The notes: generated by a model from the sequence alone, not told the origin. Shown: positions 7,406 to 29,316, numbered from the stretch's first letter. The stretch: DNA of 34,326 bases from a virus (IMGVR_UViG_3300010883_000184:1-34326); one strand, 5' to 3'. Numbers and translations are program-made.

Positions 7406-8412
7406 TAACAGACCTCGCCTGGCTCATCGGCCTCGTCTTCATAGATATCAAATATCTTTTTGTTGTCTTGGTTCAGGATATCTACGCACTCCTGTGTCTT
7501 ACTATCAGTAAATACCCCTTTCTTCAAGTTATCCGGGTCTAAACGACATATTTCCTCTGTAACCTCATCGTCTGCTAGGACATCCATATAATATTCTACG
7601 TTGTCTTGCATAATCACAGGTGGGGTGTGTTGCATGAAGTCGAACTCGTCTACCATCGTCAAAGGTTTGTTAAAATGTAGGGGTCTTAGATGTTCAATAG
7701 TATTGTCCCCTTTCACTTCTTCTAAAATCTCATATATCTCAATATCAAAATTCTTTTTTTGATAAGGAGCGTTCTGTTCTAAGATTTTTATAAATAACAT
7801 TATCTCTTCTTGTTTCGTAACAACACCAAAAGAGATAGAAGGATCTTCTATTTCATAAAAATCGTCGCCCTCGGTTTCAATGTACTCTAAAGTTATTTCG
7901 CTCGCAAGTTGTGGTATTTTTAATGTATTTTTTCCTCCACTCTCCTCTTTTAAGTCTAAAAAACCAACAGAACTGTTAATTTGTCCTTGTAAGAAGCTCG
8001 CCTGCATCGCAGGTGCGTTTTCTTTTCTGATGTCGCTTGTTCCAATAGGTTGCGGCATAGCATAGTTCTTAATAGCGGTCGGCTGCTGGCTTTTTCCGCC
8101 TAGTTCCTCCTGACCTGACAAAACTTTGTTGTAGTTGTTTAAAAATTGCTTCTCTAAACTGCTGAAGGAGATTTGAGGCTTTGATCGAGGGGCTCCGTAG
8201 TCAGTGGAAGCAGAGCCATCCCAAGCTTTATAAATTCTTTCATGAGAAGAGTTCTGCTCTTCAGTCCCTCCTCCTGCTTCAACGTTGTAAAGGATATCTT
8301 CATCAAAAAAGGAGTAAAATGTTGGCTTGAAACGGCCTTTGGACAGCAGGTGGCGCCCAAACTGGGTCAACTGTAAGTCAATTACTTCTTCTTTTTCGTT
8401 GAAGAACTCCAT
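7405..8412 (-). CDS. Virion structural protein sharing an N-terminal domain with the left-edge gene (335 aa)
   Basis: The function is not known. The first ~45 residues contain IDLQLTQFGRHLLSKG, then an FK pair, then FFDEDILYN. This aligns along its length with the N-terminus of the left-edge protein (LTDTGR, FK, DDEINY), which suggests a shared domain. The rest is acidic: the middle has beta-like segments, and the C-terminal ~60 residues are Asp/Glu-rich (for example DIYEDEADEPGE). There are no membrane segments. The start ATG 8410-8412 overlaps the stop of the 3272-residue gene as TAATG, with an AAGGTG ribosome site at 8421-8426. It is the smallest protein of this half of the cluster, lying between two giants. 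An adaptor joining larger pieces would fit, but that is inference from size and position. Confidence 0.7.
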   Translation of the reverse strand: MEFFNEKEEVIDLQLTQFGRHLLSKGRFKPTFYSFFDEDILYNVEAGGGTEEQNSSHERIYKAWDGSASTDYGAPRSKPQISFSSLEKQFLNNYNKVLSGQEELGGKSQQPTAIKNYAMPQPIGTSDIRKENAPAMQASFLQGQINSSVGFLDLKEESGGKNTLKIPQLASEITLEYIETEGDDFYEIEDPSISFGVVTKQEEIMLFIKILEQNAPYQKKNFDIEIYEILEEVKGDNTIEHLRPLHFNKPLTMVDEFDFMQHTPPVIMQDNVEYYMDVLADDEVTEEICRLDPDNLKKGVFTDSKTQECVDILNQDNKKIFDIYEDEADEPGEVC

Positions 8413-11400: not shown

Positions 11401-14400
11401 TTGACATTTTCATTATTTTTCGTTGGTATGTACTCTACATAACGTCTGGTTTGGCCGACGGACTCGTCTAAAAAGTATTGGCCGCCGCGAAAATACATTT
11501 TATATTCGCCATGGTCTAAGTGGCCGACTGCGGTGTCTGGTAAGCTCCAATGCAGCCTAAACGGCAGACCAGTTGCAGTGTCACCTGCAATAGGAATCAT
11601 TGTTGCTTCTCCGGAATGTGTAATCGCTATTTGTACAGAAGAGGTTGGGTATGTCCATCGGTTGGGCGCAGTTGTGAGATTGCCTGCAACAAACTCTCCT
11701 CGATTTTGATCAAAAAAGTCATCAACCATATATGTTTTAAATTTAGACATGAAATTTAAACTATCTGGCTTATAAATTGCCTCAAAAGGCAACTGCGTCG
11801 TGGGGCGCCTCATAAGATATGTGGGCGTTGATTTTGAGATTCCCATGCTCCAGCCCAAGCCATAGCCTAGGAGATACTTGGCATCCCTCTTCATCTCTTT
11901 GTCGCTAAATTGAGAAGACATTATATTCACCGGCTTAGACAAGCTAGAGAATGGAGAGGGGCCCCAATCGCCATGAGGGTGTGGATCTCCATAATATAAG
12001 GGGTGTTGATCTGAGCCGTTGTCGACAAAGATAGGATGACTGACGCCCATGCCTGATTTAATTGAATTATAAAGAATCCCGGGGGCCATAAGCGGTTCTA
12101 AAAAGCTTTGAGTAGCTGCTGCATTTTTATGACTGTCAGTAACTCCCGTGTGAGCATTTTTGTAGTCGTTTTCCGAATATCCTATTGAAGCAGAAAAAGC
12201 ATCAATTAACTGAGAACCTAATGTCACTGTCCTGTTGACAGGATAGAAATCTTTTTCAGGAAGCATCTTCCTAATCGCTTTAAAAGTCAAATGTATTTCC
12301 GAAGGTACAACGTTCTCATCGTCTGTAAACCCGGCTCCATTTTGTCGACACAACTTAGCAAAGTTTGCTGATGTATCGGTTTGCATGTATTTTGGCATGA
12401 ACTTTGCGCTTTGCATGTCGGAGCGCCAGTGTTCTAGAGCATGCTCAGACAAAGCTTTGATATTCCCTGGAGTTATTGAATAGTCGGCGTATTCTAAATC
12501 ATAAAATTCTTTAGACGAAGCATACTCGCTCGTCATTGCACTGTGAGAAAGAGAGTTAGGAGAGTTACCGTCGGTGTCGACAATAATCGAGTTCATATCG
12601 ATAGGAGTACTAGACGTTTCTATAGAGGAGACAAAATTAGAAGATCCTATTATCTTTGCAAAGTTTGCCACATAGTCTACTTGCCTCATCAGATTTCTTA
12701 CAATCTTTCGATTTTCATCAAGCGTATAAAGCGGCTTAGGAGAATGATTTGTTTGCGACAGAATATCTTGGTAAGTTTTCAAGTGGTCAGAAATACAATA
12801 TTCTGGTAAGACAGAGTAATCTCTTGCCATCGTATGCACGTCGTTAGAAAAGTCTAAGTAAGAGTTGTGCATTGGCGAGCGCCCAGTTAGTTTGTCTAGA
12901 CGCCAGATCGGTTGATAATATGGGTAAGCATGTCTTAAAAACTGCATGCTAGCTGTTGCCGTGGAATAGCCAGCAATACTATCTTGCGATTCAGAAAACA
13001 TTGTCCACATGTGCATCTTAGCTACTTGAATCACTGGGTTGTCCGGATCAAAATCAATATAACCGTCAGTGTTATACATCGACAATGTAGAGTTAGCCGG
13101 TGAAGACACGTCGGTCGGCGGCATATCGTCTTCTAGATAGTCCGCGACGCCGTCGAAGTCGTAATCGATTGCTTTCGTGTAAAAGTTATAAGGATCTTTT
13201 GATTTCTCAGGCATGTTATGCGGAGCAGGGTATCTATAACCTTGATTTCTGTCATAAAGAGTGATTGTAGGTTTGGTACTGAATATTAGTTCTCCGGCGG
13301 CTCCAGTAACTTGAAACTTTGAATTTGAATGATTTCTTATTAAAATTTCTTCGGAAGTCGCGGGCTTGTCTGATATATTGGCTTCGTAATACTTTTCCGC
13401 TAGTTTTCTCATAGCGTTCTGCTTAGCGAACCATCCTTCTTTAGAAGATTTTGCAGAAAAATCATGACCTACTTGGTTTGTGCCTTGGTAAGGCATAAAA
13501 ATATGGGCGCCGGCGTGGACCTCTTCGTCTGCTGCTCCGGTGGGCTTGTACACGGCATCTGTTAATTTATGCACAGAGTTAGTGTTGATCGCGATTCTGT
13601 TAGGCGCGATCCCGACGCGTTGGATTGCCCCAATGAAAGGCCCATCTTCAGCCGGATTTAGTTTCCCTCCGGCGAGGGGGTCGGCGCGGGTATGAGTCGA
13701 GTACAAATGTTCAGGAAAATCTAAAGGCCACATGCTTACAAGACTGAAATCATAAGGTTGGTGAAAAGACATTTCTGTAAGCGAAGCTGCAGCAGCGGCG
13801 CCGAGGGCTTGCGTTGTTTTTCGAATAAAGATCATCGAATCGTTAAAATCTTCTGGAAATATAGCTCCGCCGGGATTAACAGTTTGTAAATTAGTGTCTG
13901 TTGTTGTCGCGATAATAACAGAAGAAGTCACCGGAAAAAGGGTTTCCTTGTTATGAACCGGGGGTGAGTGTATAATCGCGGCTCCGATCTGGGCCGGTAC
14001 GGGGTGCCATTCGTTAACTGCAGGGCTATTAAATTTAACGACTCCTGCTGCAAAGTGCCGCTTTGAAAGAGGGCCCGGATCGGGGGCGAGACCTATTGCG
14101 TTGACGGGAAGCGCTCCCGGCGTACTTTGATGCTCCCAAAAGTGGTAGTTGCTCACCTCGTTGGGCATCATAAGCTTGCCGTCAAGGGTAACAGGGGAAG
14201 GCAGATACGGTATGTCTAGAGAACTTGTGGGGATGTTAACCAAACTGAATATTTTTACAACTTGGCCGATCACCTCGCCGGCGATCTTTACATCGTATAT
14301 ATTCCTTACACGGTCTCGTTTTTCTGTCTTCCAGAAACTTCTTATTTCCGACAGGCGGTGAGAGGGGGACAAATAATTGGTTGCCGATCGGCGTAGGAGA

Positions 14401-17400
14401 GACGCAGTTACAGGTATTATAGTACCGTTGTTGCTACTGGCATTATAAAATAGTAATTCTTGCTCTTCGTACTCTGGCTTAAGTTGGTTAACTGATCTTC
14501 TACAATTTAGTTCACCTGGGTAAATCCTCTCTCTAAAGTAAAAATTTCTGCCGGCGGCGGTGTGGCGCGCTGTTTTAAAAAAGTCATACAAGAAAGAGTT
14601 GTTTAAGGATCCAGTAATATAGTTTCTTGCCTCGCCGTCTTTCAACTTATAAATAGAATTTAAGCTCTTGTTCGTAAAAAAGTGTAAACCGTTAAAAAGA
14701 GTTTGTCTTGCCATGGCAGGTGCTTGCCCGACTAACGTCTGCGAGGTGAATTCATAAAGAAGCGGCTTGTGCCGACTCTCAACAGCAGGTTCATAATATA
14801 TTTGTGTGGAACGTAGTCTCTTGAGTTTTGTTCTTTTAAAAATAGAGGGTAGCTGTAACATTCCATCATCGTCGCCTATCAGGGCTAGCCCAGTAAATAT
14901 TGTTTTTGACGCGCCGTCTGTAATTTCATCACACCATTCAGGAGGATTGTCGCCGTAACAAAGTTGAATAAGAGCATTCTCATCGCCATCTCCTTGCATG
15001 AAACTATAGTTTGTGTCATAATCATCTTGTGAAAGCGGGGGTACAGGTTGCTCAGGAACAACAGAGATTAAACTGTTTTTCTCTAATTCTTGCAAAATTT
15101 TCTTTTTATCGCTTGATTGATTCCACATTTTCCAAGTGGGCGCGCCGTAGATGCCGTTACGATTGTTAAGGATCTCGTTCAGGAAACCACCAGAGTTGTA
15201 CGTCGTACGGGCAGGAAAAAAGCTTTGATACGAAGGGTTAAGATAAGCCAGCTGCCCTGCCACGGTTGAGATTTCCGAGCCTCCGCCAAGTGTCAGATCA
15301 AAGTTGTTTAGTTTTGAAGTTTTTGTTTGTGTAAACGAAGTCATTCTGGGGTTGACGAAAGATGTCAGGCGCGGGTCGCCGCCAGAAGATCTGGTAAGAT
15401 AAATTGTGCCTGTGTTGCTAGACGTCACAGAATACATGGAGGCATTGACGTTGCGTTGGGTGGTTATTCTTACCTGAGAAGAAGTAGGCGCAGAAAAACC
15501 TGCGACAGCTAGGTAGCTGCTTGTAGCTGTTGAAGTTATTGTATTATATCCGACTGAGCCTGCTCTTCTCTGCGTCAAATATAAGGTTGAGCTGCTAAGT
15601 CGAGAATAAATATATCTTCTATGACCGTCCTGGTGGTTGAGAGCTGCTAAAAACTCGTCTGCATATCCTACAGATGCACTAGAAGTAACGTTACCTAAGT
15701 ACACAATCACGCTACCAGAAACAACCTCTCCTGTTTCTCCACAGTTGCTAGAAAACTCATACGCTTTTGATATTCCATTTGAGCTAGTAATGCTTACTTT
15801 TCCGGCTGAATAGTTGCTTGCCGTATTGTTTAGAAAAGCAATCGTGCCTGTTGCTCTAGAACCAGTCATAACAACTTCTGCTAGCACACTGGCTGAAAAA
15901 GAAGCGGACGCGTCTGTATTAACAAGAGCCGCTAGGTTTGTTGCATAATCAGCCCGTGAGGTGCCAACATAAAATTTACTCAAACCACCAGAAAAAACAC
16001 CGTTGTTTGTAGTAAAGTCAGATTGCAGTGTGCCGTCAATTGTCGCATTTCCTCTAGCTCCTGCAGAACTCATTGTAACAACAACAGTTTTGTCTGACAC
16101 AGAAGAAGAAACTGCTAGCAAGGTTCCACTTGCCGTGGATCTGGAGCTTGAGTTAACACCGTAAGATACCGCTTGCGCTATAGACTCGTTTAAAGCAGAT
16201 GCTAGAACAGATCCTGGCGTTTCTGAAGAGAATACATTTGTAACGCCGACTGAAGTTGCTGTGCTTATGTTGTCAGTAGTTCCGCCTGTAAAATTTGTAG
16301 CAGATATTGCAGTGTTCGCACTGTTGGCCGTGCTTTGTAGTTTTATTGAACTGGCAGCAATTGTATTACTGGTGTCATTAGAATCTACGCCCAAGTTAAA
16401 AGCAATTGTTGCTGAATTGCCGGAAGTTCCTGGCCTTGTGCTAAGTACTGTTATTCCGGTCTCGTCACAGTTCGTAGCTACTGGCAAGTGGCGCGCGTAG
16501 ACGTCCTTGTTCAGCCTAAGCGAGCGATTAATCCTGTCAAGAACCCCGTTAATACTGTTGGCACCACCAGATAAATATTTATCCGATATTGTGCCGCTTG
16601 CTGCGTTTTGTAAGCCTTGGATGGCAACCTGTGCTGCTGGTACGGAGCTTACAGAAGGACTCCAAGAGACAGAAATAGTGTTTCCAGAGATACCAATAAT
16701 ATCTGACGTCAACAAAACTCTGTTTCCAGAAGCAACTGCCGTAAGATGCGAAGACAACGTTGAGCTATTATTAACCGCACTGGCTAGTTCTGTTGCCGCG
16801 GCGTCAAGGTTGGATGCAGCGGACATGGTAATAGCAACGTTAGAAAAAAGACTTGGGCTTGAAGAATTGCTAAAAGTAAAAACGCTAGCACTTACATAAG
16901 TTTTTGAGTCGAAACGTATTTCACCAGATGCTTTCTTAAAAGAACTCTGCAATTCTACTGTATCAGAAGCTCCGCCAGGCATGGAGATAGTTAAAGAATC
17001 TCCAGATTTGCCACCAGAAAAACTTGTTACTTCCAGATGAGAAATTGCAGAATCAGTTGAAATTGTAGTATTTCCGTTTAGCCCAGAGGTTTCGAACTGA
17101 TCTAGATATACAATAGGTTTTAAGCCTGTGGCCGTATAATTTGCCACGTAGGAATTTAAGCTAATGCCAGAAATTGCAATTGCTTGTTGAAGGCGTGTTG
17201 CGATGTCATACGAGCTAGTTAAACCGTTTATTTGTACGTATATTTCTTGTTGGTTATATTGGCCTGTTTTAGTGTCACCGTTGTCTAACGGCACGGTAAG
17301 GTTAATTGAGTCTCCGCTATCATCAAGAGAAGTTACTGTTTTCGTTGCTGTAGTGGTCCAAACAAACTTTTTTGTTTGTGTTGGGCCGGCCAAAGTAATA

Positions 17401-18230
17401 TACTCACCGTTGAGGTCACTCGCAGTGGCTGTTTTTATTTTTATTTGTCCCTTTGCGATGGCTGCAGAAGTATAATTGCTGGGCTGGTCAAAGGAAACGC
17501 TGGCGCTTGCATTAATGCCCGTACTTAGGCTAGCAGAATATGCGCCGCCGGCGGTGAAAGCTAAGCTTCTTCCGGAGAGGTCGGCGTAACCATTCCCACC
17601 AGAGAACCCTAAAGTGTAATTAGCAATTCCGGTGAACCCACTGTTGGGAATACTGGTATTTCCTAGTTGGCCCGGGACGTCCTGCTTACAAGTGACCACA
17701 GATCCACTAGATGTGGCTGTTATTTTCAAAGTACTGACTGAATTGATACATGATGCTAATTTTGTTGCCATAGCGGTATCTGTTGAAATGCCGCTAAGAC
17801 CAAAAGTTGTCGTCGCGCTTGTGCTAGAAGTACTATAAGTAAAAGTCGCTTCTGTGCCCAGGGTATCTTTAAAGAAGATCTTGGCGCCTTGAGTCTGGCT
17901 TATAACAGATGCTGCGCCCGATAATTCAATCGCTGCAGAGGCTGTAGACTCGACTGTTCTAAAGCGAGCAGTGGCTGCTTCACTAGGAGTTGAAGAAGTT
18001 GATGCAACAAAGTTGTAATTTGCTGCGGCGCCTGATAATATCAGATAACTATCAGAAGAATAATCGCCGATAAGCGCGGTGATAGAAGGTGTGTCGGAAG
18101 ATCCGACGACTGGATCACGCACAAAAGTATTTGAACCTATACTATTAGACGAGATTACATATGTTTTTGTTGCCGTCGTAGAAGTTGTGCCGTGACGTGC
18201 GCTAGCTGTGTCATAAATTGTTCTAGCCAT
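8412..18230 (-). CDS. Giant virion protein with N-terminal module array and Ca-type loop (3272 aa)
   Basis: This is the largest gene of the window. Residues ~1-1000 are Ser/Thr/Ala-rich and poor in charge and Trp. They contain about six copies of a degenerate module: beta strands, a helix of the type ATxLAxxIN, then a strand ending in a G-x-x-GNTxI turn (near residues 188, 387, 517, 606, 730 and 898). From ~1010 onward the composition changes to a mixed, aromatic-rich globular protein. One further module copy (YATNLAAAIN) lies at ~2310-2367. Residues 1689-1700 read DYDFDGVADYLE, a textbook EF-hand/thrombospondin-3 type calcium loop. A short coiled coil lies near 2810-2835. The ATG follows an AGGAA ribosome site and a TATAAATG box in the 72-base gap upstream. 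A distal baseplate, fibre or receptor-contact role is inferred from size, repeats and position downstream of the wedge genes. Confidence 0.75.
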   Translation of the reverse strand: MARTIYDTASARHGTTSTTATKTYVISSNSIGSNTFVRDPVVGSSDTPSITALIGDYSSDSYLILSGAAANYNFVASTSSTPSEAATARFRTVESTASAAIELSGAASVISQTQGAKIFFKDTLGTEATFTYSTSSTSATTTFGLSGISTDTAMATKLASCINSVSTLKITATSSGSVVTCKQDVPGQLGNTSIPNSGFTGIANYTLGFSGGNGYADLSGRSLAFTAGGAYSASLSTGINASASVSFDQPSNYTSAAIAKGQIKIKTATASDLNGEYITLAGPTQTKKFVWTTTATKTVTSLDDSGDSINLTVPLDNGDTKTGQYNQQEIYVQINGLTSSYDIATRLQQAIAISGISLNSYVANYTATGLKPIVYLDQFETSGLNGNTTISTDSAISHLEVTSFSGGKSGDSLTISMPGGASDTVELQSSFKKASGEIRFDSKTYVSASVFTFSNSSSPSLFSNVAITMSAASNLDAAATELASAVNNSSTLSSHLTAVASGNRVLLTSDIIGISGNTISVSWSPSVSSVPAAQVAIQGLQNAASGTISDKYLSGGANSINGVLDRINRSLRLNKDVYARHLPVATNCDETGITVLSTRPGTSGNSATIAFNLGVDSNDTSNTIAASSIKLQSTANSANTAISATNFTGGTTDNISTATSVGVTNVFSSETPGSVLASALNESIAQAVSYGVNSSSRSTASGTLLAVSSSVSDKTVVVTMSSAGARGNATIDGTLQSDFTTNNGVFSGGLSKFYVGTSRADYATNLAALVNTDASASFSASVLAEVVMTGSRATGTIAFLNNTASNYSAGKVSITSSNGISKAYEFSSNCGETGEVVSGSVIVYLGNVTSSASVGYADEFLAALNHQDGHRRYIYSRLSSSTLYLTQRRAGSVGYNTITSTATSSYLAVAGFSAPTSSQVRITTQRNVNASMYSVTSSNTGTIYLTRSSGGDPRLTSFVNPRMTSFTQTKTSKLNNFDLTLGGGSEISTVAGQLAYLNPSYQSFFPARTTYNSGGFLNEILNNRNGIYGAPTWKMWNQSSDKKKILQELEKNSLISVVPEQPVPPLSQDDYDTNYSFMQGDGDENALIQLCYGDNPPEWCDEITDGASKTIFTGLALIGDDDGMLQLPSIFKRTKLKRLRSTQIYYEPAVESRHKPLLYEFTSQTLVGQAPAMARQTLFNGLHFFTNKSLNSIYKLKDGEARNYITGSLNNSFLYDFFKTARHTAAGRNFYFRERIYPGELNCRRSVNQLKPEYEEQELLFYNASSNNGTIIPVTASLLRRSATNYLSPSHRLSEIRSFWKTEKRDRVRNIYDVKIAGEVIGQVVKIFSLVNIPTSSLDIPYLPSPVTLDGKLMMPNEVSNYHFWEHQSTPGALPVNAIGLAPDPGPLSKRHFAAGVVKFNSPAVNEWHPVPAQIGAAIIHSPPVHNKETLFPVTSSVIIATTTDTNLQTVNPGGAIFPEDFNDSMIFIRKTTQALGAAAAASLTEMSFHQPYDFSLVSMWPLDFPEHLYSTHTRADPLAGGKLNPAEDGPFIGAIQRVGIAPNRIAINTNSVHKLTDAVYKPTGAADEEVHAGAHIFMPYQGTNQVGHDFSAKSSKEGWFAKQNAMRKLAEKYYEANISDKPATSEEILIRNHSNSKFQVTGAAGELIFSTKPTITLYDRNQGYRYPAPHNMPEKSKDPYNFYTKAIDYDFDGVADYLEDDMPPTDVSSPANSTLSMYNTDGYIDFDPDNPVIQVAKMHMWTMFSESQDSIAGYSTATASMQFLRHAYPYYQPIWRLDKLTGRSPMHNSYLDFSNDVHTMARDYSVLPEYCISDHLKTYQDILSQTNHSPKPLYTLDENRKIVRNLMRQVDYVANFAKIIGSSNFVSSIETSSTPIDMNSIIVDTDGNSPNSLSHSAMTSEYASSKEFYDLEYADYSITPGNIKALSEHALEHWRSDMQSAKFMPKYMQTDTSANFAKLCRQNGAGFTDDENVVPSEIHLTFKAIRKMLPEKDFYPVNRTVTLGSQLIDAFSASIGYSENDYKNAHTGVTDSHKNAAATQSFLEPLMAPGILYNSIKSGMGVSHPIFVDNGSDQHPLYYGDPHPHGDWGPSPFSSLSKPVNIMSSQFSDKEMKRDAKYLLGYGLGWSMGISKSTPTYLMRRPTTQLPFEAIYKPDSLNFMSKFKTYMVDDFFDQNRGEFVAGNLTTAPNRWTYPTSSVQIAITHSGEATMIPIAGDTATGLPFRLHWSLPDTAVGHLDHGEYKMYFRGGQYFLDESVGQTRRYVEYIPTKNNENVKTGQETLTAYSNYNGELVLHHLQHHFKIGTSSAEYATNLAAAINSTGSHFPFHVDTGVLDATGLKPVFTDRNVQLFTASVITYQNGESGVSIHTVDPLVAPHNTVFQIYGQTTLPSPTASYGIPTTAGSALSASVYDNAAGNAKDIKLYFKSTGLEKNEYDPGGTDSTNPNATKDPRSNVAVKIAAHNFKPHVHMNPITAGSNREQRIYESSINNFLAETVNFFIKAQSSTSRYYDFKMPIVASTVKQTNFNVVSGTTYYMSVNLYMGESHVMCEGPRFANLPHAGNWASASMRGAFFGSPMEVIHRDSTLNGPTTGGYETEAEAMSSNLTDPAYHHVTPPYFYGPSSLLIKYEATGSQATIDDIYSASKKTSLYFEEYVTGMTIDEIDPISEVAHNTSPAIFPTSSLSPKVPSKNSVSTGSAARMKLEASVDVWKDGFSLLDIAPLGGLAGNQVPSRAWIMAPKWVCPVLDFGLPATIVRKPTSYNSNDKKILSNRADSIKNTTAFYNYCTGRSMWLGYGVDPYDNNDLSALKAHLEDQKQKIAEIENFFEQHEIAGMEGKPVVHIVDPSQGPDACTPGKKGIYLQISETFPESFGGDIGSSVTFATPFSGSGNQSGYYTNREEVFGAANTGSLVSLLGFDKTSGTGPRPIGQIADSKRVHEAIVAIPYFDSSFAVQSKQSVGSPNMNEDGTPNPTAGAFVGTVDRDLLSTVEIIPGYHFLKIDETFFEKALGAMMVDRLTPEGSGRNTELRSVYKDFAGTQNALQEMDVGQMMRTLLGEGGSAGLGYVLPPEFDFMNNSAVTPFQMVVAPFYQDLDKTDLSNIWQNLAPDPVNRASKVRTGVTLRPTGDGVIFEGGVIEDLVGKDAIQPDAFSLNAPGQFLNASPLAPGFKAANPGKITFKGSPPTTPSDFYAKLRWMVFKVKQRSAMNYDTYKSRQVDMCLEEQGIEAHQTGDAQFVLLNSLGTQELYGSNWPYDFFSLIEKAKIEIEFKVGS
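11125..11310 (-). repeat. Isolated repeat-module copy inside the 3272-aa protein
   Basis: Translated residues ~2310-2367 contain AEYATNLAAAINSTG followed by alternating strands and an ESGVSI turn. This matches the second half of the modules in the N-terminal array of the same protein and in two upstream proteins. It stands alone, more than 1300 residues from the array. Confidence 0.5.
13131..13166 (-). other. EF-hand/TSP3-type calcium-binding loop in the 3272-aa protein
   Basis: Residues 1689-1700 are DYDFDGVADYLE: acidic residues at loop positions 1, 3, 5, 9 and 12, Gly at 6 and a hydrophobic residue at 7. This is the full DxDxDG pattern. Calcium binding is inferred from the motif alone. 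No paired helix-loop-helix is obvious, so a thrombospondin-3-like loop is as likely as an EF-hand. Confidence 0.6.
15525..17960 (-). repeat. Array of ~6 degenerate protein modules (start of the 3272-aa protein)
   Basis: The encoded segment repeats a pattern of about 90-200 residues: a strand pair, an Ala/Leu helix (ATKLASCIN, ATRLQQAI, ATELASAVN, ATNLAALVN, DEFLAALN) and a strand ending in a Gly turn (GQLGNTSI, GLNGNTTI, GISGNTIS, GTSGNSATI, GARGNATI, SVGYNTIT). Several copies end in an F-S/T-GG segment. The similarity is at protein level; I see no long DNA identity between copies, so the duplications are old. Confidence 0.6.
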
Positions 18231-18302
18231 ATTGGGTTCCTATCATCAAATAAATAGATTATACATTTAATATCTTTTCAAGTTAAAGACATTTATACTT
18301 TT
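18231..18302 (-). other. Largest intergenic gap (72 bases)
   Basis: This is the only gap above 40 bases in the window. It is AT-rich and holds a TATAAATG box near its upstream end and the AGGAA ribosome site of the 3272-residue gene. I see no convincing stem-loop terminator in it. It divides the operon into a wedge half and a downstream half. Confidence 0.7.
18290..18297 (-). promoter_or_regulatory. Candidate T4-type late promoter box TATAAATG
   Basis: The minus strand reads AAAAGTATAAATGTC. TATAAATG differs at one position from the T4 late consensus TATAAATA. It lies 60 bases upstream of the ATG of the 3272-residue gene, in the only sizeable gap and in the correct orientation. T4-type late promoters need only this -10 box plus phage sigma/co-activator proteins. 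One 8-base near match in AT-rich DNA is weak evidence by itself. Confidence 0.4.
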
Positions 18303-21300
18303 CTAAGGGTCTAATTGGATCAGGCCGGCTAGTTGTAGATCACTGGCGTCATCTAACTCTAACCAAAGTTCTTCTTGTATAAGCCCGGTAACTGTTCGAA
18401 TCCATTTGGGGTAATCATTTGTTCTTGGTATTGCATGACTGATATACGCGTTGTCATAAACTGAGCCTCTGGCAATCTGATCATGCGGCAGTTGTGTACT
18501 TCCGCTAATGAGATATTCCCAAGATTCTTGTGTATTCCTACCCAGGACTAACTTGTCACCCCTATTCCTATGATACTTATGAAAACTAGCGCTTACAACA
18601 GTATAGTCAGCTTTAGACACTGAGCCTGTTTGTTGTACCGGGTAGATTGCCTGGCTCCTCACTACCTTAGCTGTTGGGTTTTTTCCTCCGTTAAGTGAAA
18701 CTACCTGCAAAATAGTTGAATCAATTGGATCGTCAAACTCGCCAGTTTCAATTATACCATCTGCATTTGCGTCAAGAGCAATAAGGCCGGCCTCGCCAGT
18801 GCGGATAGGCGTATTTCCTGCCCAGCCTGCAACATTATATTGCGATAGGCCGGCGGTGTCAGCATTTGCAACAAGAATCACCTTTGTAGCATCACTAGGA
18901 TCAAGACTAGAATAAATGTCTAGGTAATCCGGGTTAGTTGCTTCCTCTGCGTCGGCCGGATCGGGTCCGCCACCTACTAGTATTCCTGCTTTAATATTGT
19001 CGGCTGTCTCTTGAGCCGTGGCGCCAATTTTCACAGCAACAGCCCACCGGTAAGGTTTAGCTCCGATTTTGACAATAGTAGCAAGAGCAACGTTGTCTGG
19101 GTTTGCAGCTGGTACAAGACTTAAATATAGTGTCACTCCTTTCCAGTCAACTAACTGAATCGCCGGTCTGGTCAGTGCACCGGCTGCGGCGGACAGCGCT
19201 TCGAGAGCTGTGTTTCCCGCCACTTTGATACTGCCAGAAGCAACAATCCCATCTTGAGTATGCGCGCCGACGCCAAAGCGGCCGCAATGTGCCGTTAGAG
19301 ATGACTTTAATCTTTGTCTTATGTGATAGTTTCTCCATGGAAGCGCGTTGTAAGCAGAGTACGTGCGGTGTGCTTCATCTCTGAAGCCGGCACATGAGTC
19401 TAAAATATCGCCTGGTGCAGAGAATATATTTACCATTCTTGTTTGTTGCTTGTACTCTCGGTAGGAAGGTCCAGAGACTAGTTCATGTGTGTTCTGCCTA
19501 TCTTTACCAGGTATTGGCTGGACCTCCGCGTCCTCAACTTTGTTCAAAGTGACAAAATTTCCAATATCTTGTGCTACAGTCCTATATCTAGCTAGACGTC
19601 CCTCTGTGCCATACTGTGTTTTTTGGAATAACCACGGAGTTGCTACTACTCCTGACTCATCACTAGCCCAACCTAAGTACATAGAGGAGATTTCTTGCTT
19701 GCCCTCTTTTGGCTGACCAGCAGGCACGTCTTGAAACTCTAAAACAATTTCTTTAAACGTTTTGTCGTTTGCTTCGTTGCCTACCGTGTTAAAAATTTCA
19801 TAATTATTGCGATAGTTTCCAGCGATTGTTCTCTGTAACGCTTTAAAGTCTCCGTGAGATAGATCTTTTTTGGACCCAACTTGAACATTTTTGATGTTGA
19901 CTGGTCTTTTTGCAAATTCTTCTCTCATCCATACAGCATAAGGCCTAGTGGCATCGTCGTGCGTTGGGTGTAGGAGTTTAAAAGAAGTTTCAACGTTGCC
20001 GCCTAAATCTATTTTAACGCCGTCGATGGCGCAAGTAGCCTCGAAGAAGGCTGGTGCCATCCAAACGAATCTTATATAAAATCTAGTTCCGGCGTATGCA
20101 GCCAGGCTAACTTCTGCTCTTTTCCACGCCTCGTCTTTTGAAAGTTGTTGATTTCCCTGGATCGATTCTGCATCGAGCGCTCCTGCTCCACCCTTGTCCC
20201 ACGAGACAGTCAAGGCTGTTACATTAGTAACGAAATTTGGATCTTGAGAATGCAAAAGGTAGAACTTACCATTCGCACCTTTACTAAACATATGGTAATA
20301 AAAGGTAAGAAGCATTGAATCTCCAGACTTTGAATCTAGAAAATCTATTAGCGGTGACCTAAATCCAAAAGCTGCTAGTGGATTGTCTGCGTCTAGCGGT
20401 CCTTTCTTCGCATAAGCAAAATATTTGTTGCCAGTGACGCCCTCTTGCGCGTCGGTTGAGTCTACATTGGGGCCGCCAAGTGGATCAGGAATATTGTCAG
20501 CAAAACGCCAGCCAGTCTTTGAAGCATTGAACTTTTCATGCACAGGGACGTTAACCCAACGGTCATGCTCGCTTGGATCATCGGATCTTCCTTCTTGATT
20601 TGTCGCGCCAGGAGACGGATCCGAACCCGACATCTCTGGCGGCATATTGAATGGGGCAAAAGGGATATTAAACGGTAAATAATTTGTAGTTGAGGAGCCG
20701 GTATAACCAACGTTATCGGTTCCTCCGTAAGATAATTCCCATCCTTCAGGGCGTGTGTTATTTCCGTCCAAAGGAGAGGCTGTTGAGTTTTCTCCTCCGC
20801 TGTAGGTAACCGCGTTCAAAGATATGTGCCGATGCTGGTTTCCTCCAACGTGCTGTCTTGCAAAAGGGCCCTGCATGGGCACTTCGTACGTCGGTCGGTA
20901 GACATCGTGGTGCAAATTGTTAAACTCGACGCGGGAAGTTCTTCCGTGACTAACTCCATGCGTATACGAAGTATAATCGCGGTCGAAGTATTGATCATAC
21001 TCCATTGTATAATCGTTAGCCACCTCATTGCTGTTATTCCCATAACTTTGTACCTTACCTGTCCGGTTTGCATACATAGAAAATGGCATTATCAGTTTGT
21101 TTGTTGAGTCTGTGTATCTGTAATCATCATCTCCGGTACCCGACGCGTTTGATTCTATAATCTCCGTAGCTGTCATCGTAAAAACTTTAGCTGGAAACTC
21201 TTTTTTGTGGGGAAGATAAAAACCTTCAGCAGAAGAACTACCCTCCGCCTTTGTAATGTCAAGAGTATCGACTGGTGGTATAATGTGGTCTTTATCTAGC

Positions 21301-24300
21301 CATATATAATCGTTATCACTACCAAACTTAATAACACCCTTATAAAAATCATGTAATTTTTGTCCATCAGGGTTGGGGCCGGCCTTATATGTTTTTACAA
21401 AGTCTTGAGTAATTCTAACCGGAGTACTTGTCGACCGATCTCGGTAGTAAGACGCGGAGTATTTTATTTTATTAGCCGTCTGCTTTCCATATTGACCATC
21501 TTTTTTGTCGATGGTACCGACTGGATATGACAAAGTAAGATTATCGTTACCAGAGGTTTCGGTTATGATTGTTTTTAAGATAATATTTTTATCTAAATCG
21601 AGTGGTGCGTCTCCAGATGTCAATTCGCCGCGGCGAGTGGCTCGCTCTTTCCACCAAAAGCTATTGCGATTCTGATTTTCAGTTGCATGAGGGGCTTGAA
21701 CTGCTCCATCTTTGCCAATAACTGGCGGGGATCCTAGTTTCCAGTTGTAAACAAGCTCGTTAATCCCTTTTAACGCCTCATCTGGCTTAGGATTAAACAT
21801 TTCAATGGTTGGAAACTTGTTAAAGTGTTTGCTTCGTTCTAAAACATGACTTTCAACCATATTTCTTAAAAACTCTACCTTGTTCGAAGATGCCGGCAGC
21901 AGTTGGAAGATAAAAAGCGATATTGCGTCGTCGATCCACTTGAAATATTCGACATACTTCTCTAAATCGGGTACATTTTCGACGATCTCGAAGAAAGTGC
22001 TTCGTAACTTGGCTAAATGTTTGTACTCTTGTCTGTATCTGTTAACCGGTTCGCCAATTATGTTGTTAAAGTCAACAACGGTTGCAAACATGCGCATCAT
22101 TTCTTCAGAAATTGATTGATACATACTCTTTTCAACAGATATTATGTGTTGTATGTACGTTGTGTCTCTTGTAAACACCACATCGTCTTGCTGGTTGAGA
22201 ATTTTTATCATGTCATCACTGTTCACAACCTCTGGAAGACGTTGTTTTGCGGTAGGAACGAACTCTATATCAACAGCTTGGTCACTTGAAGCCTCAAAAA
22301 GATCTCCGCGGGCGGAATAATGATATGTGTTGACGTTGCTAAGGACTCCATAACGTGCGTTTGTTCTATCGTCGGCGGATCCTGACGAAATGTCTAGTAC
22401 TAAAAACTGCCCATTTGTATCAGAGCTTGTAACATTCTCAAAATTCCAATGAAAAACAAGTGTGTCAATTTCTGGGACGCGTGCGTTAAACAAGCTTGTC
22501 ATCCCTGCAACATTTGCTTCATTGAAAGCTGCATTTTTGTATGGGTGTTGCCGGCCAAAGTTGCTTGCGTCGCGAGCATGAGCTTTAATATCCTCATCGT
22601 TAAGATAATCATACCACATTGCAACAGAAGAAATTTTTGCATCTGACGCTCGAATTAATGTTCCGTTGTAGTTAGTACGATGGGCACCGGCATAAACTCT
22701 CTTTGCTTTTGTAAAGAAGGCTCTTGCATCTGTCTCAGATATCGTAGCGGACAGCGTAAACTCGTTCTGCAGATAATCTGACACGTAATTTACACCATAA
22801 AACTCAACTGTATACGCGGTGTCGGCCGGGAGAAGTGAACCATCAACATCGTTTGCCAAAGAAGAATGAGGCTTAATAAGCTGGTTGCTGATTGCTTTTG
22901 TAGGCCGTAATCTGAAAGCAAAATTCCATTTTTCATTATCGTATACGTCGTATGAGCCAGAAGTTGTAAGTTCAGGTATTACGGAAGAAGCATTGGAAGT
23001 TAACTTAAATTTAACTCTTCTATTATCAGCAGGGTTTTTAATCGCGATTACATTAAAATTGATAGTGTCATTTAACCAGGTTAAGACGGTATTTGACTCC
23101 GCTACTGCATGCAATCCAAACAAAGATACTTCGTTTCCTGGAAACAGTCCAAATAAATCATCTTTCTCTGGAGATCTTTTTGGAAATATAGCCTCTGCTT
23201 CAAGTGTGGTAGATAAACCATGGGCAACGTCGTTCAGCCCAACAATATAAGATTTTGAATTAGAATTTGTTAAATCGTAATACTGATATACTGTTGCTCC
23301 GTAGGAGCCAGCATAGATACCATTTTTGTTATACCGCGACTCGGCGTCGTCGAAGTCTGCATATTTTTTTCTAAAAGCCGTGTGAGATACGTTATCTTTA
23401 AACTCGTACGTATCGTTCTTCGCATAAATATTTATTTTTACTAATTCTTCGTCCACGCCAAAACAGCGCAGTAAGTTTCTAATTGATTTAGTAGTGCCTT
23501 TTGATTTTTGTATATATGTTAAGTTGTTGTATATATTTTGGTAAATCGTGTTCTTTACTTCATACAGCTTCTTCTCAAAAAGCTTTTTTTCATCTCTCTC
23601 TAGAAATTTAGCCATGGCGGACGCGTCGGCAAACAGTTCAGGAGCGTCAATGCCACGCGAGGATAATAAACGATCAGCGAAAGGAAGAGGTTTTTCAAAA
23701 TCTGCATCGTAGGGGTAATTAACATCTTTTAATTTTGGGAGCGCTTTGATCTGCAGCTGCATTTCATCAAAAGTACTAGCCATGATCTGTGTTAGAAATT
23801 TTAAATTACCAGATTTTTTCTCGTCCTCTTCGGCAATCCAACCTGGGATTGACTTAAAAATAGAAGTTGCATTTTCATGATCATGAACTGTACCTTCTAT
23901 TCTTTTTTTCTCAAAAAGGGTTACAACATCCGGATGAGCTGAATATATGATAGGATCTTTAAACTCTTTTTCTGCTACGCCTGCTAGAACCATCGCTGAT
24001 CCGGTATTTCTGGAAGTTCCACTTTGATAATTAACAAATGTGCCGTTTGAAACGCGGCCTGAATAGTCTAACACAGTAGAATCAAATGTATTATCGCCGG
24101 TTACACCCTCGTTAAATTTAAAGTACACACCTAAATCTACAGGGTTGTGCGTTTTGTTGTATTTAATATTGTCAGTGTTTGTGCCTCCGCCAATTTGATC
24201 TCTGAAATGGCGGCCAATTTGTTGAGCATCTCTTTCTGTTTTCCAATATCTAAATTCGTCAATAGATGCAGATACCAAGCCTCCCCAGCCGCGATCGGCT

Positions 24301-25277
24301 GTAGTGAGGTTTAAGTCTTTTGGGCCGGCGAGGGCGCCAATGGTTGCGACCATCTTGCCGGTGATTGCACCAATAGGGTTTGCTTCGTTTTCTGTTGATT
24401 TGTGTATACCATCAACATATAGTTTTGCAACGTTTACTGACCCGCTAATTTTAAAAGACACCGCATAGTGATGCCATTTTCCGTCGGCCAAGCCGCCGGC
24501 TGCGCCAGCAGTTAGTCCTGTAGCCAAAGTAGAGGCGTTTTGTACTGAGCCTGAATCAGCCGTCAGATAAATATTTCCAGGCTGGGCTCCATAAACAGCC
24601 ACTCTTAAGTTGCCATATTTAGCGCCTGTGGACCCGGAAGCAACGTTATTGAAAACATATTCAAATTTATTCGAATCTGTTGCTGCCCAGCCGTCCTTCT
24701 TCATCCAGAATTCAATTGTCAAGCCTTTAGCTGGATCTAACTCTAAGTTGTTTGTTCTGTAGCTGCCTGTCTCATAAATATTAGCTTTCGAAACGCCGAC
24801 TCCAGAAGGGCCTGCTGTTGCAGGTTGTTTATAATTACCACTTACATCAGCGTGTGGGTTGCCAGTAAAGAAAACATATTGAGGGGCGTTACTGCTATAA
24901 ACGCTTGATTCTACAGTTGTAGTATATTCGTTACTTATATATATAAAACCGTTTGATCGAGGATATTCATTCTCGAACATATAAAGATCTAGATAAGTAC
25001 TGTCATTTTCCCACTCAACTTTTTCAGCTAAAGATCCATCGTAAGGGTAGGTCTTGTATACTCTTTCTATAGACTGCTTATAGTATAATTCTGCTAGCCC
25101 ATATGCAGCAAAATTAGAAGCGGTTGCGAAATCAGTGTCAGGTATGAACCGATCGCGACGCGTAGAATATGCATCGACATACCTAAAAGATTCAACATCA
25201 TCGCGGAAGTTAGCCTGCGTTTTGTTCTTGAGAAACTTTAGAGAGTACCCTTTGTCAAAAAAATCTTTAGTGCCCAT
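18303..25277 (-). CDS. Giant baseplate wedge protein, gp7/tail protein I-like core with lectin-like domains (2324 aa)
   Basis: Domains seen in order: a short N-terminal domain; a LamG-like jelly roll at ~175-410 (IEFWMKK, DGKWHHYAVSF, LYVDG, IDEFRYW); a helical core at ~450-625 with YIQKSKGTTKSIRNLLRCFG, matching the KGT...IR...LG signature of phage tail protein I (P2 GpI, the T4 gp7 role); a second LamG-like domain at ~690-960; a helical segment at ~1050-1190; a MAM/cleaved-adhesin-like domain at ~1575-1755 (LAAYAGTRFYIRFVW, then AIDGVKIDLG); a repeat module at ~2014-2165; and a calcium-type loop at 2169-2180. P2 GpI is under 200 residues, so this is about 13 times larger. Its position after gp25- and gp6-like genes supports a wedge role. 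The start is ATG 25275-25277, 18 bases after the previous stop, with only a weak ribosome site (GCGGGTAA). Confidence 0.65.
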   Translation of the reverse strand: MGTKDFFDKGYSLKFLKNKTQANFRDDVESFRYVDAYSTRRDRFIPDTDFATASNFAAYGLAELYYKQSIERVYKTYPYDGSLAEKVEWENDSTYLDLYMFENEYPRSNGFIYISNEYTTTVESSVYSSNAPQYVFFTGNPHADVSGNYKQPATAGPSGVGVSKANIYETGSYRTNNLELDPAKGLTIEFWMKKDGWAATDSNKFEYVFNNVASGSTGAKYGNLRVAVYGAQPGNIYLTADSGSVQNASTLATGLTAGAAGGLADGKWHHYAVSFKISGSVNVAKLYVDGIHKSTENEANPIGAITGKMVATIGALAGPKDLNLTTADRGWGGLVSASIDEFRYWKTERDAQQIGRHFRDQIGGGTNTDNIKYNKTHNPVDLGVYFKFNEGVTGDNTFDSTVLDYSGRVSNGTFVNYQSGTSRNTGSAMVLAGVAEKEFKDPIIYSAHPDVVTLFEKKRIEGTVHDHENATSIFKSIPGWIAEEDEKKSGNLKFLTQIMASTFDEMQLQIKALPKLKDVNYPYDADFEKPLPFADRLLSSRGIDAPELFADASAMAKFLERDEKKLFEKKLYEVKNTIYQNIYNNLTYIQKSKGTTKSIRNLLRCFGVDEELVKINIYAKNDTYEFKDNVSHTAFRKKYADFDDAESRYNKNGIYAGSYGATVYQYYDLTNSNSKSYIVGLNDVAHGLSTTLEAEAIFPKRSPEKDDLFGLFPGNEVSLFGLHAVAESNTVLTWLNDTINFNVIAIKNPADNRRVKFKLTSNASSVIPELTTSGSYDVYDNEKWNFAFRLRPTKAISNQLIKPHSSLANDVDGSLLPADTAYTVEFYGVNYVSDYLQNEFTLSATISETDARAFFTKAKRVYAGAHRTNYNGTLIRASDAKISSVAMWYDYLNDEDIKAHARDASNFGRQHPYKNAAFNEANVAGMTSLFNARVPEIDTLVFHWNFENVTSSDTNGQFLVLDISSGSADDRTNARYGVLSNVNTYHYSARGDLFEASSDQAVDIEFVPTAKQRLPEVVNSDDMIKILNQQDDVVFTRDTTYIQHIISVEKSMYQSISEEMMRMFATVVDFNNIIGEPVNRYRQEYKHLAKLRSTFFEIVENVPDLEKYVEYFKWIDDAISLFIFQLLPASSNKVEFLRNMVESHVLERSKHFNKFPTIEMFNPKPDEALKGINELVYNWKLGSPPVIGKDGAVQAPHATENQNRNSFWWKERATRRGELTSGDAPLDLDKNIILKTIITETSGNDNLTLSYPVGTIDKKDGQYGKQTANKIKYSASYYRDRSTSTPVRITQDFVKTYKAGPNPDGQKLHDFYKGVIKFGSDNDYIWLDKDHIIPPVDTLDITKAEGSSSAEGFYLPHKKEFPAKVFTMTATEIIESNASGTGDDDYRYTDSTNKLIMPFSMYANRTGKVQSYGNNSNEVANDYTMEYDQYFDRDYTSYTHGVSHGRTSRVEFNNLHHDVYRPTYEVPMQGPFARQHVGGNQHRHISLNAVTYSGGENSTASPLDGNNTRPEGWELSYGGTDNVGYTGSSTTNYLPFNIPFAPFNMPPEMSGSDPSPGATNQEGRSDDPSEHDRWVNVPVHEKFNASKTGWRFADNIPDPLGGPNVDSTDAQEGVTGNKYFAYAKKGPLDADNPLAAFGFRSPLIDFLDSKSGDSMLLTFYYHMFSKGANGKFYLLHSQDPNFVTNVTALTVSWDKGGAGALDAESIQGNQQLSKDEAWKRAEVSLAAYAGTRFYIRFVWMAPAFFEATCAIDGVKIDLGGNVETSFKLLHPTHDDATRPYAVWMREEFAKRPVNIKNVQVGSKKDLSHGDFKALQRTIAGNYRNNYEIFNTVGNEANDKTFKEIVLEFQDVPAGQPKEGKQEISSMYLGWASDESGVVATPWLFQKTQYGTEGRLARYRTVAQDIGNFVTLNKVEDAEVQPIPGKDRQNTHELVSGPSYREYKQQTRMVNIFSAPGDILDSCAGFRDEAHRTYSAYNALPWRNYHIRQRLKSSLTAHCGRFGVGAHTQDGIVASGSIKVAGNTALEALSAAAGALTRPAIQLVDWKGVTLYLSLVPAANPDNVALATIVKIGAKPYRWAVAVKIGATAQETADNIKAGILVGGGPDPADAEEATNPDYLDIYSSLDPSDATKVILVANADTAGLSQYNVAGWAGNTPIRTGEAGLIALDANADGIIETGEFDDPIDSTILQVVSLNGGKNPTAKVVRSQAIYPVQQTGSVSKADYTVVSASFHKYHRNRGDKLVLGRNTQESWEYLISGSTQLPHDQIARGSVYDNAYISHAIPRTNDYPKWIRTVTGLIQEELWLELDDASDLQLAGLIQLDP
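18738..18773 (-). other. EF-hand-type calcium-binding loop in the 2324-aa protein
   Basis: Residues 2169-2180 read DANADGIIETGE: D1, N3, D5, G6, I8 and E12 of a canonical EF-hand loop (DxNxDG...E). It directly follows the repeat module and lies about 145 residues from the C-terminus. Confidence 0.6.
18785..19240 (-). repeat. Repeat-module copy near the C-terminus of the 2324-aa protein
   Basis: Residues ~2014-2165 follow the same plan as modules in the 607- and 3272-residue proteins: a GSIKV strand, a KGVTLYL strand, an ATAQETADNIKAGI helix, a KVILVANADTAG strand, then a WAGNTPIR turn. It is more diverged than the copy in the 607-residue protein. Confidence 0.45.
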
Positions 25278-25295
25278 TAAATTACCCGCTTATAC

Positions 25296-27119
25296 CTATG
25301 TTTCTACTCTAAATTTAAATACTTCTTCCTGTTCTCTCCAGCCCCCTGCGACGTAATAAGCTAACTTAACACCGTACATATATCCAGATCGTAGCAAAGA
25401 CATGTCAAAATCAAAATAACTGCCAGAGTTATCATAGGACATAAAAGTTTCAAGGTCTGTGCTTCCGGTACTATGTTTAAAAATAGTTTCGTTGTCTGCC
25501 ATCCTAATAATCGAGTATGACGCGCTTACAATTGTTTCGCCTTCTACAACACTGTTTGCGACTGTATAAAGTGTAGGTTCGAAATTTCGTTTTCTTGCAA
25601 AAACTCTGAATCTTGCTGTTTCTTTGTTGTCGTACATATCTTTTAGATTTGTTATCTTGTTAGCATACTGATGATACTGATTTGAATCACTAAAGCTTCT
25701 TGCTATCACACTAATAGTGCCGGTATGAATTGCGGTGGCGCCCGGCAAAAACCAAACATCATGAAGAACACTTTCAGATGTCGCCAGAGTAAGCGCGGCC
25801 TTGTATATCCCAGTTGAAACCTTAGTACAGTTTGCATCGGTCAAGGTTGATCCAGAAGGAACGGAAGCTGAGCTAGCATACAAATTTACGCTTGGCAAGC
25901 CAGAACCGTCTGTTGCAAAATCAGTTAAAGTTCCGTTCACGTAATTGTATAAATACAAGTTATTAGCGTTGTTAGCAATTGCAGAACTACTAGCAAAAAA
26001 TTTGTTTCTATCATCGGTGATTCTACTGTCCCAGCGAACTTCGATAACAGGTTTCTTAAAGAAATACTCAGAACTTCTTGCATAAAATCGTTTTGTATAA
26101 AATGACTTTTGTTGGCCGGCCGTGTTTTGTAGTTCAGATCCAGAATCTCCGGTCGAAGAAGAAAAATAAGCCTCTTGGCTGCTTGTTAGCATAATACCAA
26201 AGCCATAATCGTCTAGTCCGGTACCGTTAGCGAAATCTGATTTTGTCATACCGGCTGCGCCGCCGTCGGTGAGAGCAATTGTCGTATTACCCTGTGTGCC
26301 GGCAGTGGCCTGGTATATTGTAACCACAGCCGCGGGCGCGGAAGCAGAAAACTTTGCACTTGCATTAATTTGCGCAGCCAAATTAGTGGCCGTCGTATTG
26401 TTGTTTGTTTCGGCTATCCAGGTACCTCCGCCTGCGACGTCGCCAGCTGTAAAGTCGTGAGAGGTCCCATCAGTGGCGACCAAAGTAACTTTATCGCCAT
26501 TGTTAATTTCAGCGAGAGCGCTAATCGTCACTGATCCAGTTGCAACCACGTTAGTTGCTATCCATTCTTCAACAAGGGCAGTAACGTCGACTTCTAGATC
26601 TTCCGAGCCGGTAACAAAGCTAGCTGTGAAAGAAGAAGTAGAATACGCACTACCAGAAAGATAATCGCCGCCCTCCCTTGTCCAGGCGACTCCCTTAGTC
26701 CTGTTGACCCAGTTCGAGCCGGGTATGACATCTTTTGTGTCATCACTGTGGTTAATAAGGTCAATTCCTGTCCCCTCTTCCCAACCTCTAGCAACTGGCA
26801 GAATACTCAAGGTAAAATTCTCTGGTATTTGCTCTGAGTGACGTGCGTTGAAAAGACGTAAATAAAATTTTGCGCTTCCGGAGGCGGGAATCAGGCTTGC
26901 ATCGCGGTCAGTTTTGATGCTTGTGGTACCCGTTACGGGAAACTTAATAAGGATTCTTGATAATTCTGACGAGGCAGATGCGTACTGGCCGTATACAGAA
27001 AATGTTTCTAAAACATCGTTGGCGCCGGCGTTGGAGCCGGTACCCCTGCCTGATAGTACAGTGTCAAAAGCGTTGTTTACCGTATTGTCGGCTTCTGCTT
27101 TGTATCTTTTAATGGCCAT
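25296..27119 (-). CDS. Baseplate-associated DNRLRE/CBM-like protein interrupted by a repeat module (607 aa)
   Basis: Residues 1-190 look like the first part of a DNRLRE/carbohydrate-binding jelly roll: ADNTVNNAFD, an SRILIKFPV strand, LRLFNARHSE, a GWEEGTGID motif and a DVTALVEEWIA helix. Residues ~193-293 are a repeat module (NGDKVTLVATDG, ATNLAAQIN, GTQGNTTIAL). The jelly-roll pattern then seems to resume at ~298-365 with DYGFGIML, FYARSSEYF and KPVIEVRWDS. The C-terminal ~240 residues are beta-rich and unassigned. DNRLRE domains usually occur on secreted or surface polysaccharide-binding proteins. The gene lies between gp6-like and gp7/GpI-like wedge genes, so it is probably an outer wedge decoration. 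Its ATG overlaps the gp6 stop as TAATG; AAGGA at 27131-27135 is the likely ribosome site. Confidence 0.65.
   Translation of the reverse strand: MAIKRYKAEADNTVNNAFDTVLSGRGTGSNAGANDVLETFSVYGQYASASSELSRILIKFPVTGTTSIKTDRDASLIPASGSAKFYLRLFNARHSEQIPENFTLSILPVARGWEEGTGIDLINHSDDTKDVIPGSNWVNRTKGVAWTREGGDYLSGSAYSTSSFTASFVTGSEDLEVDVTALVEEWIATNVVATGSVTISALAEINNGDKVTLVATDGTSHDFTAGDVAGGGTWIAETNNNTTATNLAAQINASAKFSASAPAAVVTIYQATAGTQGNTTIALTDGGAAGMTKSDFANGTGLDDYGFGIMLTSSQEAYFSSSTGDSGSELQNTAGQQKSFYTKRFYARSSEYFFKKPVIEVRWDSRITDDRNKFFASSSAIANNANNLYLYNYVNGTLTDFATDGSGLPSVNLYASSASVPSGSTLTDANCTKVSTGIYKAALTLATSESVLHDVWFLPGATAIHTGTISVIARSFSDSNQYHQYANKITNLKDMYDNKETARFRVFARKRNFEPTLYTVANSVVEGETIVSASYSIIRMADNETIFKHSTGSTDLETFMSYDNSGSYFDFDMSLLRSGYMYGVKLAYYVAGGWREQEEVFKFRVET
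26245..26545 (-). repeat. Repeat-module copy inserted in the 607-aa protein
   Basis: Residues ~193-293 form the cleanest single copy of the module seen in the window: GSVTISALAEINNGD, VTLVATDG, TATNLAAQINAS, VVTIYQATAGTQGNTTIAL. It separates two halves of what otherwise reads as one DNRLRE-type domain. Confidence 0.6.
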
Positions 27120-28918: not shown

Positions 28919-29316
28919 TGACTTAATGTCCCGTCGTTAATTGTAATCGCTGATTGTAGGTTCAAGTCAGGAACAATATATACTATTTTTATTGACAAGA
29001 TTTGACGGTCTTCTAGCGGAACCCCTAGATCATCTGCGTGATCAAAAATAACGTTTTGTAAAGTAACAAAAGGCATATACCTTTCTACTTGACTGTGTAA
29101 CCTTTGTTCTATCGCGGATTGAGCAGTAGCATGCGGTTCAAAAAGATAGTTTCTTATACCAACCCCAAAATCAGGGTTCATAACTCTTTCTCCTGGTGAA
29201 GTTAAGATTAAATTTTTAAAATTTTGTTTTATTTCCTCTTCGTAGGACGTTATCAGAGAGTATACTCCCATTCTTGAATCCCTAGTCAAAGGCAATGACG
29301 GACCAATAGCTTCCAA
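28915..29316 (-). CDS. 25: Baseplate wedge protein, gp25/GpW-like (133 aa)
   Basis: This is the gp25/GPW (IraD-like) family, whose protein links the sheath end to the wedge. Visible hallmarks are the LILTSPGERVMNPDFG segment followed by NYLFEP, an amphipathic helix with AIEQRL, and a C-terminal hydrophobic strand (LSIKIVYIVP). The usual YEPRI motif is replaced by YMPFV. The length of 133 equals that of T4 gp25 (132). The start is TTG at 29314-29316, supported by a perfect AAGGAG eight bases upstream; the first internal Met, residue 16, lacks such a site and would cut into the N-terminus. It lies 36 bases after the right-edge gene and overlaps the gp6-like gene by four bases. Confidence 0.93.
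   Translation of the reverse strand: MEAIGPSLPLTRDSRMGVYSLITSYEEEIKQNFKNLILTSPGERVMNPDFGVGIRNYLFEPHATAQSAIEQRLHSQVERYMPFVTLQNVIFDHADDLGVPLEDRQILSIKIVYIVPDLNLQSAITINDGTLSQ

Follow-up and report, generated by a model that had tools for sequence, protein, structure and literature searches.

The protein module described here recurs in large baseplate-region genes of an environmental virus with a contractile tail, on a linear contig of 34,326 bases (IMGVR_UViG_3300010883_000184; the whole of this stretch is called the window below), and its closest described counterparts are extra domains of phage tail sheath proteins. In the sheath of the Agrobacterium phage Milano (gp20), residues 91-203 form an external sheath extension domain (SED) in the published structure, and a disulfide joins Cys182 of that domain to the sheath body of the adjacent subunit (PMC10811340). 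Domain III of phage Mu, which faces outward, varies more between sheaths than any other part (PMC11915804). Evseev et al. (2022) surveyed extra sheath domains, which in their survey are mostly immunoglobulin (Ig)-like sandwiches inside sheaths and are commoner in large phages, and proposed that they help in adhesion or in stability (PMC9230969). Phage Ig-like domains, as Fraser et al. (2006) are cited in that survey, are promiscuous add-ons exchanged horizontally among structural proteins, with weak carbohydrate binding proposed. Tail genes are already known for shuffling (PMC10684548), and in open-licence papers I found no account of a single module family in sheath as well as baseplate-region genes.

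Judged by its sequence, the module is a genuine shared domain. The large genes of the window all lie on the minus strand, and the three in which it had been proposed encode proteins of 607, 2324 and 3272 residues, placed as the initial annotation had described. The carriers and the segments assigned to the module are the following.

25296-27119, minus strand: host protein of 607 residues (P0001), with a core of ~500 residues
26214-26546, minus strand: module copy in P0001, residues 192-302, between ...VEEWIA and NYGFGI, without counterpart in most of 40 relatives
18303-25277, minus strand: host protein of 2324 residues (P0002)
18681-19238, minus strand: putative degenerate module copy in P0002 at site A, residues ~2014-2199, an insertion common to L002 and L028
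8412-18230, minus strand: host protein of 3272 residues (P0003), of which residues ~1-960 are the module array
17592-17939, minus strand: P0003 copy 1, residues 98-213
17010-17387, minus strand: P0003 copy 2, residues 282-407
16623-16904, minus strand: P0003 copy 3, residues 443-536
15984-16259, minus strand: P0003 copy 4, divergent, residues 658-749, from profile-profile comparison only
15513-15854, minus strand: P0003 copy 5, divergent, residues 793-906

These assignments come from a hidden Markov model (HMM) that was seeded with two non-window copies and iterated solely on the proteins of other phages, the window being excluded. This out-of-sample model matched the 607-residue protein at residues 192-289 (E 5e-12, 35 bits), where a copy had been proposed, and the 3272-residue protein at 97-202 (E 4e-14, 42 bits), 443-527 (E 3e-10, 30 bits), 282-397 (E 4e-5, 13 bits) and 793-906 (E 2e-4, 11 bits). 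When residues 1-1000 of the 3272-residue protein were shuffled locally 500 times with their Ser/Thr/Ala bias kept, the top score was 10.6 bits, and reversed-protein decoys gave no domain match under E 0.015. The strong copies, at 30-42 bits, thus bear out a similarity beyond compositional bias, whereas the copies at 282-397 and 793-906 barely exceed chance in the shuffle test. A profile-profile comparison, in which the window protein was aligned with that of the relative L002, had the 607-residue copy and two of the 3272-residue copies in its model, so that only the remaining copies are independent of it. It returned copy 1 (P 3e-20), copy 3 (P 4e-11), residues 302-407 (P 2e-8) and 807-900 (P 3e-5), and an extra copy at 658-749 (P 5e-6). 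The sequence evidence thus supports five copies in the N-terminal third of the 3272-residue protein; it does not bear out the "about seven" of the initial annotation. A further copy had been proposed near the C-terminus of the 2324-residue protein. The HMM found no match there, and with the window and L002 profile, taken without L028, residues ~2014-2199 gave P 0.001 as against 0.09-0.85 for unrelated segments. The case for this copy is made instead by its insertion site, which it has in common with an unmistakable copy in L028.

Other searches were less telling. A model built from the 607-residue copy alone, as had been suggested, gave a best match of E 0.009 in the 3272-residue protein and nothing in the 2324-residue protein, and is too weak for this family. 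The 607-residue protein, a hand-made consensus and one module had no match in phage and plasmid collections, where a low-complexity filter may mask such queries. The DNA repeat search gave short families of no use, and the module alignment is too divergent for pattern search.

An AlphaFold2 model from 22 aligned copies is confident (predicted local distance difference test, pLDDT, 82; predicted template modelling score, pTM, 0.80) and consists of strands, a single helix over NTTATNLAAQINAS, and strands, the plan read beforehand from the sequence. Near-invariant positions are few (G, N and F), and no polar catalytic motif is conserved among the copies. Neither Pfam nor NCBIfam has a family that covers the module, and none of the 22 copies has a Hint/intein match in either. 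Laminin_G_3 (PF13385) does not match the module, and Ig families have no Pfam match, with Foldseek matches to antibodies and immunoglobulins poor (template modelling, TM, score 0.27-0.38). Two candidates were rejected, namely Flg_new_2 (InlB B-repeat), which fell under the Pfam cut-off on the window copy and appeared in one of the 22 copies, and a single weak match to 8fjf, H10, in a profile search of PDB sequences.

Among solved structures, the best Foldseek match is the Milano tail sheath (E 0.012, TM 0.55-0.58); podovirus nozzle proteins and the PhiTE sheath score nearly as well. Among the predicted viral proteins of BFVD the top match is a protein of phage RcTitan (E 2e-7, TM 0.76), and baseplate-J-like, sheath and major tail proteins follow, the phage 7-7-1 sheath among them (E 8e-3). 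On the Milano sheath the module HMM has an envelope of residues 91-216 (domain E 0.07), and against 11 Mu- and Milano-type sheaths hhalign aligned a common core motif over 42 columns (P 3e-6, probability 88%). That motif, A..iA.aIN....TA....G.VTLT...G..GN, is present in the Milano SED, in the Mu-like sheath domain and in the module. The Milano SED is also of similar size (113 residues), lies externally and, like the module in its hosts, is an insertion, in its case into the body of the sheath. Sequence profile and structure comparison together indicate that the module resembles a small self-contained beta/alpha domain of the SED kind. Like the type 2 and 3 sheath domains of Evseev et al. (PMC9230969), it is a beta-rich add-on, probably away from tube contact. 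However, in Milano the SED belongs to a single gene and is a fixed part of it, whereas the module is found in several tail genes and sites, with copy numbers from one to at least five and with copies that are present or absent between close relatives. In being exchanged between unrelated structural genes it works like the Ig-like phage domains, but it is not one of them, and its fold has a central helix.

The distribution of the module across relatives, which are uncultured contigs, is that of an insertion. Viral contigs contain 40 relatives of the 607-residue protein, most of which are ~500-520 residues long, join VEEWIAxxQ directly to NYGFGI and lack exactly the ~110 module residues; the module in the window protein is therefore an insertion. 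Twelve insertions of at least 30 residues are present in this family, and 11 of them are the module, or ~10 distinct ones given that L018 and L021 are near-identical. They fall at three sites: after residue 145 (L008, L016, L018, L021, L025, L033 and L041), after residue 191 (the window, L002 and L003) and after residue 450 (L041). The twelfth, in L035 (8124-10652), adds ~367 residues with FG-GAP repeats after residue 49. In the 2324-residue family, site A holds the module in the window, L002 and L028, and nothing in L014, L033, L022 and L040. At site B, L014 has the module, and L006 and L022 have a Laminin_G_3 lectin-like domain (the match to PF13385 is confined to these two inserts), and a third site, near residue 1185, holds the module in L041. 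The array in the first ~960 residues of the 3272-residue protein is found in the window and L002 only; the proteins of five other relatives start at a point that matches residue ~1000, and in L022 a single module sits at a second place, outside the array region. Finally, the L003 counterpart of the 335-residue protein has one module. The module thus occupies at least three sites in the 607-residue family, three in the 2324-, two in the 3272- and one in the 335-residue family.

Nor is it confined to the baseplate cluster, because the closest relative has a copy in its tail sheath. Whole-contig scans of 14 relatives located a module on the 180-kb contig of L002, at a distance from the baseplate genes. 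Its carrier there is a tail sheath protein of 1318 residues (phrog_23 E 4e-57, PF17482), whose gene is followed by that of the tail tube, and a second sheath copy is in L089. At the same segment the sheaths of two other relatives have a divergent stretch only (1154 residues) or nothing (986 residues). No canonical copy was found in these scans on the relatives' contigs of 186 and 131 kb. The sheath of the 186-kb relative (L086) does have ~170 residues at the insertion site that look like a strongly diverged module carrying an internal extension, which the profile missed. The window's own sheath gene lies outside the record, and the window copies sit in other genes.

The copies are related to one another in a way that follows neither gene nor site. 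Between the window and L002, the core of the 607-residue protein is 71% identical but the module at the same site only 34%; identity along the protein is ~80% ahead of the insert, 32-50% within it and back at 75% beyond it. Conversely, the L002 module of this family is 60% identical to a module in a different gene of L032, where the 607-residue cores are 48% and the gp6 proteins 46% identical. The two sheath copies group with a baseplate-gene copy of L003 (support 98/88), nested inside the baseplate-gene copies, to which they are 57-75% identical in amino acids. On the module tree the gene of residence changes 8 times, as against 8-11 (mean 10.1) with shuffled labels. The tree excludes four highly diverged copies; several of its branches are long, and its deep nodes do not resolve. 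A candidate recent exchange of the L025 and L033 module (88% identical, against 70% for the core) was not used; DNA identity there has no sharp break.

What kind of element, then, moves in this way? The module is probably a SED-type domain that serves as an exchangeable tail add-on, an accessory surface domain. It is inserted in-frame in several structural tail genes (the 607-, 2324-, 3272- and 335-residue families and that of the sheath); from one phage to the next it has been gained, lost or replaced, and in the 3272-residue protein it has multiplied into the N-terminal tandem array. To judge from kinship, recombination may have copied it between genes and phages. It would project outside the sheath and at the baseplate periphery, most likely binding host-surface or environmental glycans weakly, and exchange would diversify its sequence, presumably to the benefit of the virus. 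The domain shuffling suggested by the initial annotation is thus upheld by presence/absence insertions in four neighbouring gene families and by the tree tests given below, although its restriction to the baseplate is not. A bolder version, that one domain family circulates as a dedicated cassette for varying the tail surface among sheath, baseplate-region and array genes, both inside one phage and from phage to phage, and takes turns with lectin domains at a site common to both, is possible but less likely than not.

Several points weigh against the accessory surface domain. The AlphaFold2 model of the whole 607-residue protein is poor (pLDDT 62; its PDB matches, at TM 0.10-0.19, were not used), so that I infer, rather than see, the exposure of the insert. 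The PDB matches of the module itself are modest, with a root-mean-square deviation above 5 Å and E 0.01-0.04 at the TM scores given above, as is the likeness in sequence to the Milano SED, where the domain E value was obtained for that sheath alone. The inter-subunit disulfide in Milano fits cementing as well as adhesion, and several of the contigs compared are near-identical duplicates.

The strongest competitor is a structural cement or spacer, by which the module would steady the tail via neighbouring subunits and its scatter would reflect changing packing needs, not host contact. Beside the Cys182 bond, it has in its favour that virion stability is among the roles proposed for extra sheath domains. 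However, many relatives do without the module, among them those with the 186- and 131-kb contigs, a lectin-like domain substitutes for it at one site, and sequences at the same site differ more than the host protein does. I consider cement alone unlikely and prefer an accessory function at the surface, weak adhesion being the likeliest, because the sheath relative faces outward, a lectin-like domain is accepted at at least one site, there is no fixed requirement for the module, and the core of the 607-residue protein itself faintly recalls carbohydrate-binding folds. The N-terminal part of that core has a weak likeness to carbohydrate-binding beta-sandwiches (Disaggr_repeat/CBM96), with PF06848 matching 17 of 28 family members and CBM96 two of 28 (E<0.01). 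The earlier suggestion that the module diversifies surface contacts fits the outward sheath domain and the lectin-like domains at the shared site, with binding itself an expectation.

A selfish or neutral insertion, spread via edges that tolerate in-frame recombination and under no selection for function, would explain why neither site nor copy number is fixed and why the few near-invariant residues include no catalytic motif. It is nonetheless improbable, since the reading frames are open, the core motif is kept over a large divergence, and all identified recipients are tail structural genes, all of which suggests selection on the protein.

Vertical inheritance, with an ancestor that had all the sites and lineages that lost different ones without any movement between genes, would suit the copies of L025, L033 and L008 at site 145, which form one clade, and the first array copy, which is common to the window and L002. 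But approximately unbiased (AU) tests reject the monophyly of the three site-191 copies (p-AU 6.7e-8), of those of the window and L002 (p-AU 0.003), of all copies of the 607-residue family (p-AU 5e-65) and of four copies at site 145 (p-AU 0.017), and the two sheath copies nest among copies whose hosts are unrelated proteins. I regard this explanation as very improbable. That Ser/Thr/Ala-rich stretches are merely alike, as the evidently biased composition and the one-sequence search that barely detects other copies might suggest, has virtually no chance of explaining the family, being refuted for the strong copies by their out-of-sample scores, clean insertion boundaries and confident model, although it may still account for the weakest ones.

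The genes around the carriers point to a baseplate region. In order, gp25-like and gp6-like wedge genes identified with PHROGs are followed by those for the 607-, 2324-, 3272- and 335-residue proteins, the first two and the last being as follows.

28915-29316, minus strand: gp25-like baseplate wedge protein (phrog_261 E 1e-16)
27119-28918, minus strand: gp6-like baseplate wedge protein (phrog_10646 E 4e-17, phrog_219 E 6e-16)
7405-8412, minus strand: protein of 335 residues (P0004) without module, whose counterpart in the L003 phage (491 residues) has one

The 607-, 2324- and 3272-residue proteins have no Pfam match above threshold and no informative PHROG annotation, nor has the 335-residue protein an informative one in PHROGs, the sole library scanned for it. 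A search with the gp6-like protein found no relatives among viral contigs. In the 2324-residue protein (gene 18303-25277), residues ~190-345 can be read as concanavalin/LamG-like (GLTIEFWMKKDGW...WHHYAVSFK), with no Pfam call at E<1. Where the window has separate 2324- and 3272-residue genes (8412-25277), the distant relatives L003, L016, L029-L032 and L037-L039 have one fused open reading frame of ~3,000 residues or more; either the window split this gene or the other relatives fused theirs. Downstream, proteins of 997 and 1374 residues (window 288-7405) have no recognisable counterpart in the fetched loci, whose extent falls short of that region.

The module also reaches a phage with another type of tail. 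RcTitan, a Rhodobacter siphophage (L043) and hence non-contractile, has it by HMM in gp13 (E 7e-6) and gp17 (E 5e-4), genes of unannotated function that adjoin capsid and tail genes. They lie at 8559-9128 and 10535-12748, near the capsid gene, and gp17 has two weak tandem copies.

Extra tail-sheath domains are known, and this module gives a concrete, site-by-site case of domain exchange, and a single module traced across sheath and baseplate-region genes appears to be new. It supplies a profile where the Pfam and NCBIfam models have none, helps to explain the large size and variability of tail genes, and reduces the question of adhesion versus stability to a single small domain. Taken together, the evidence suggests that the module is a part that phages can exchange to alter the surface of the tail. 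If its circulation as a single cassette among sheath, baseplate-region and array genes were true, a virus could change the coat of its entire tail by swapping one part.

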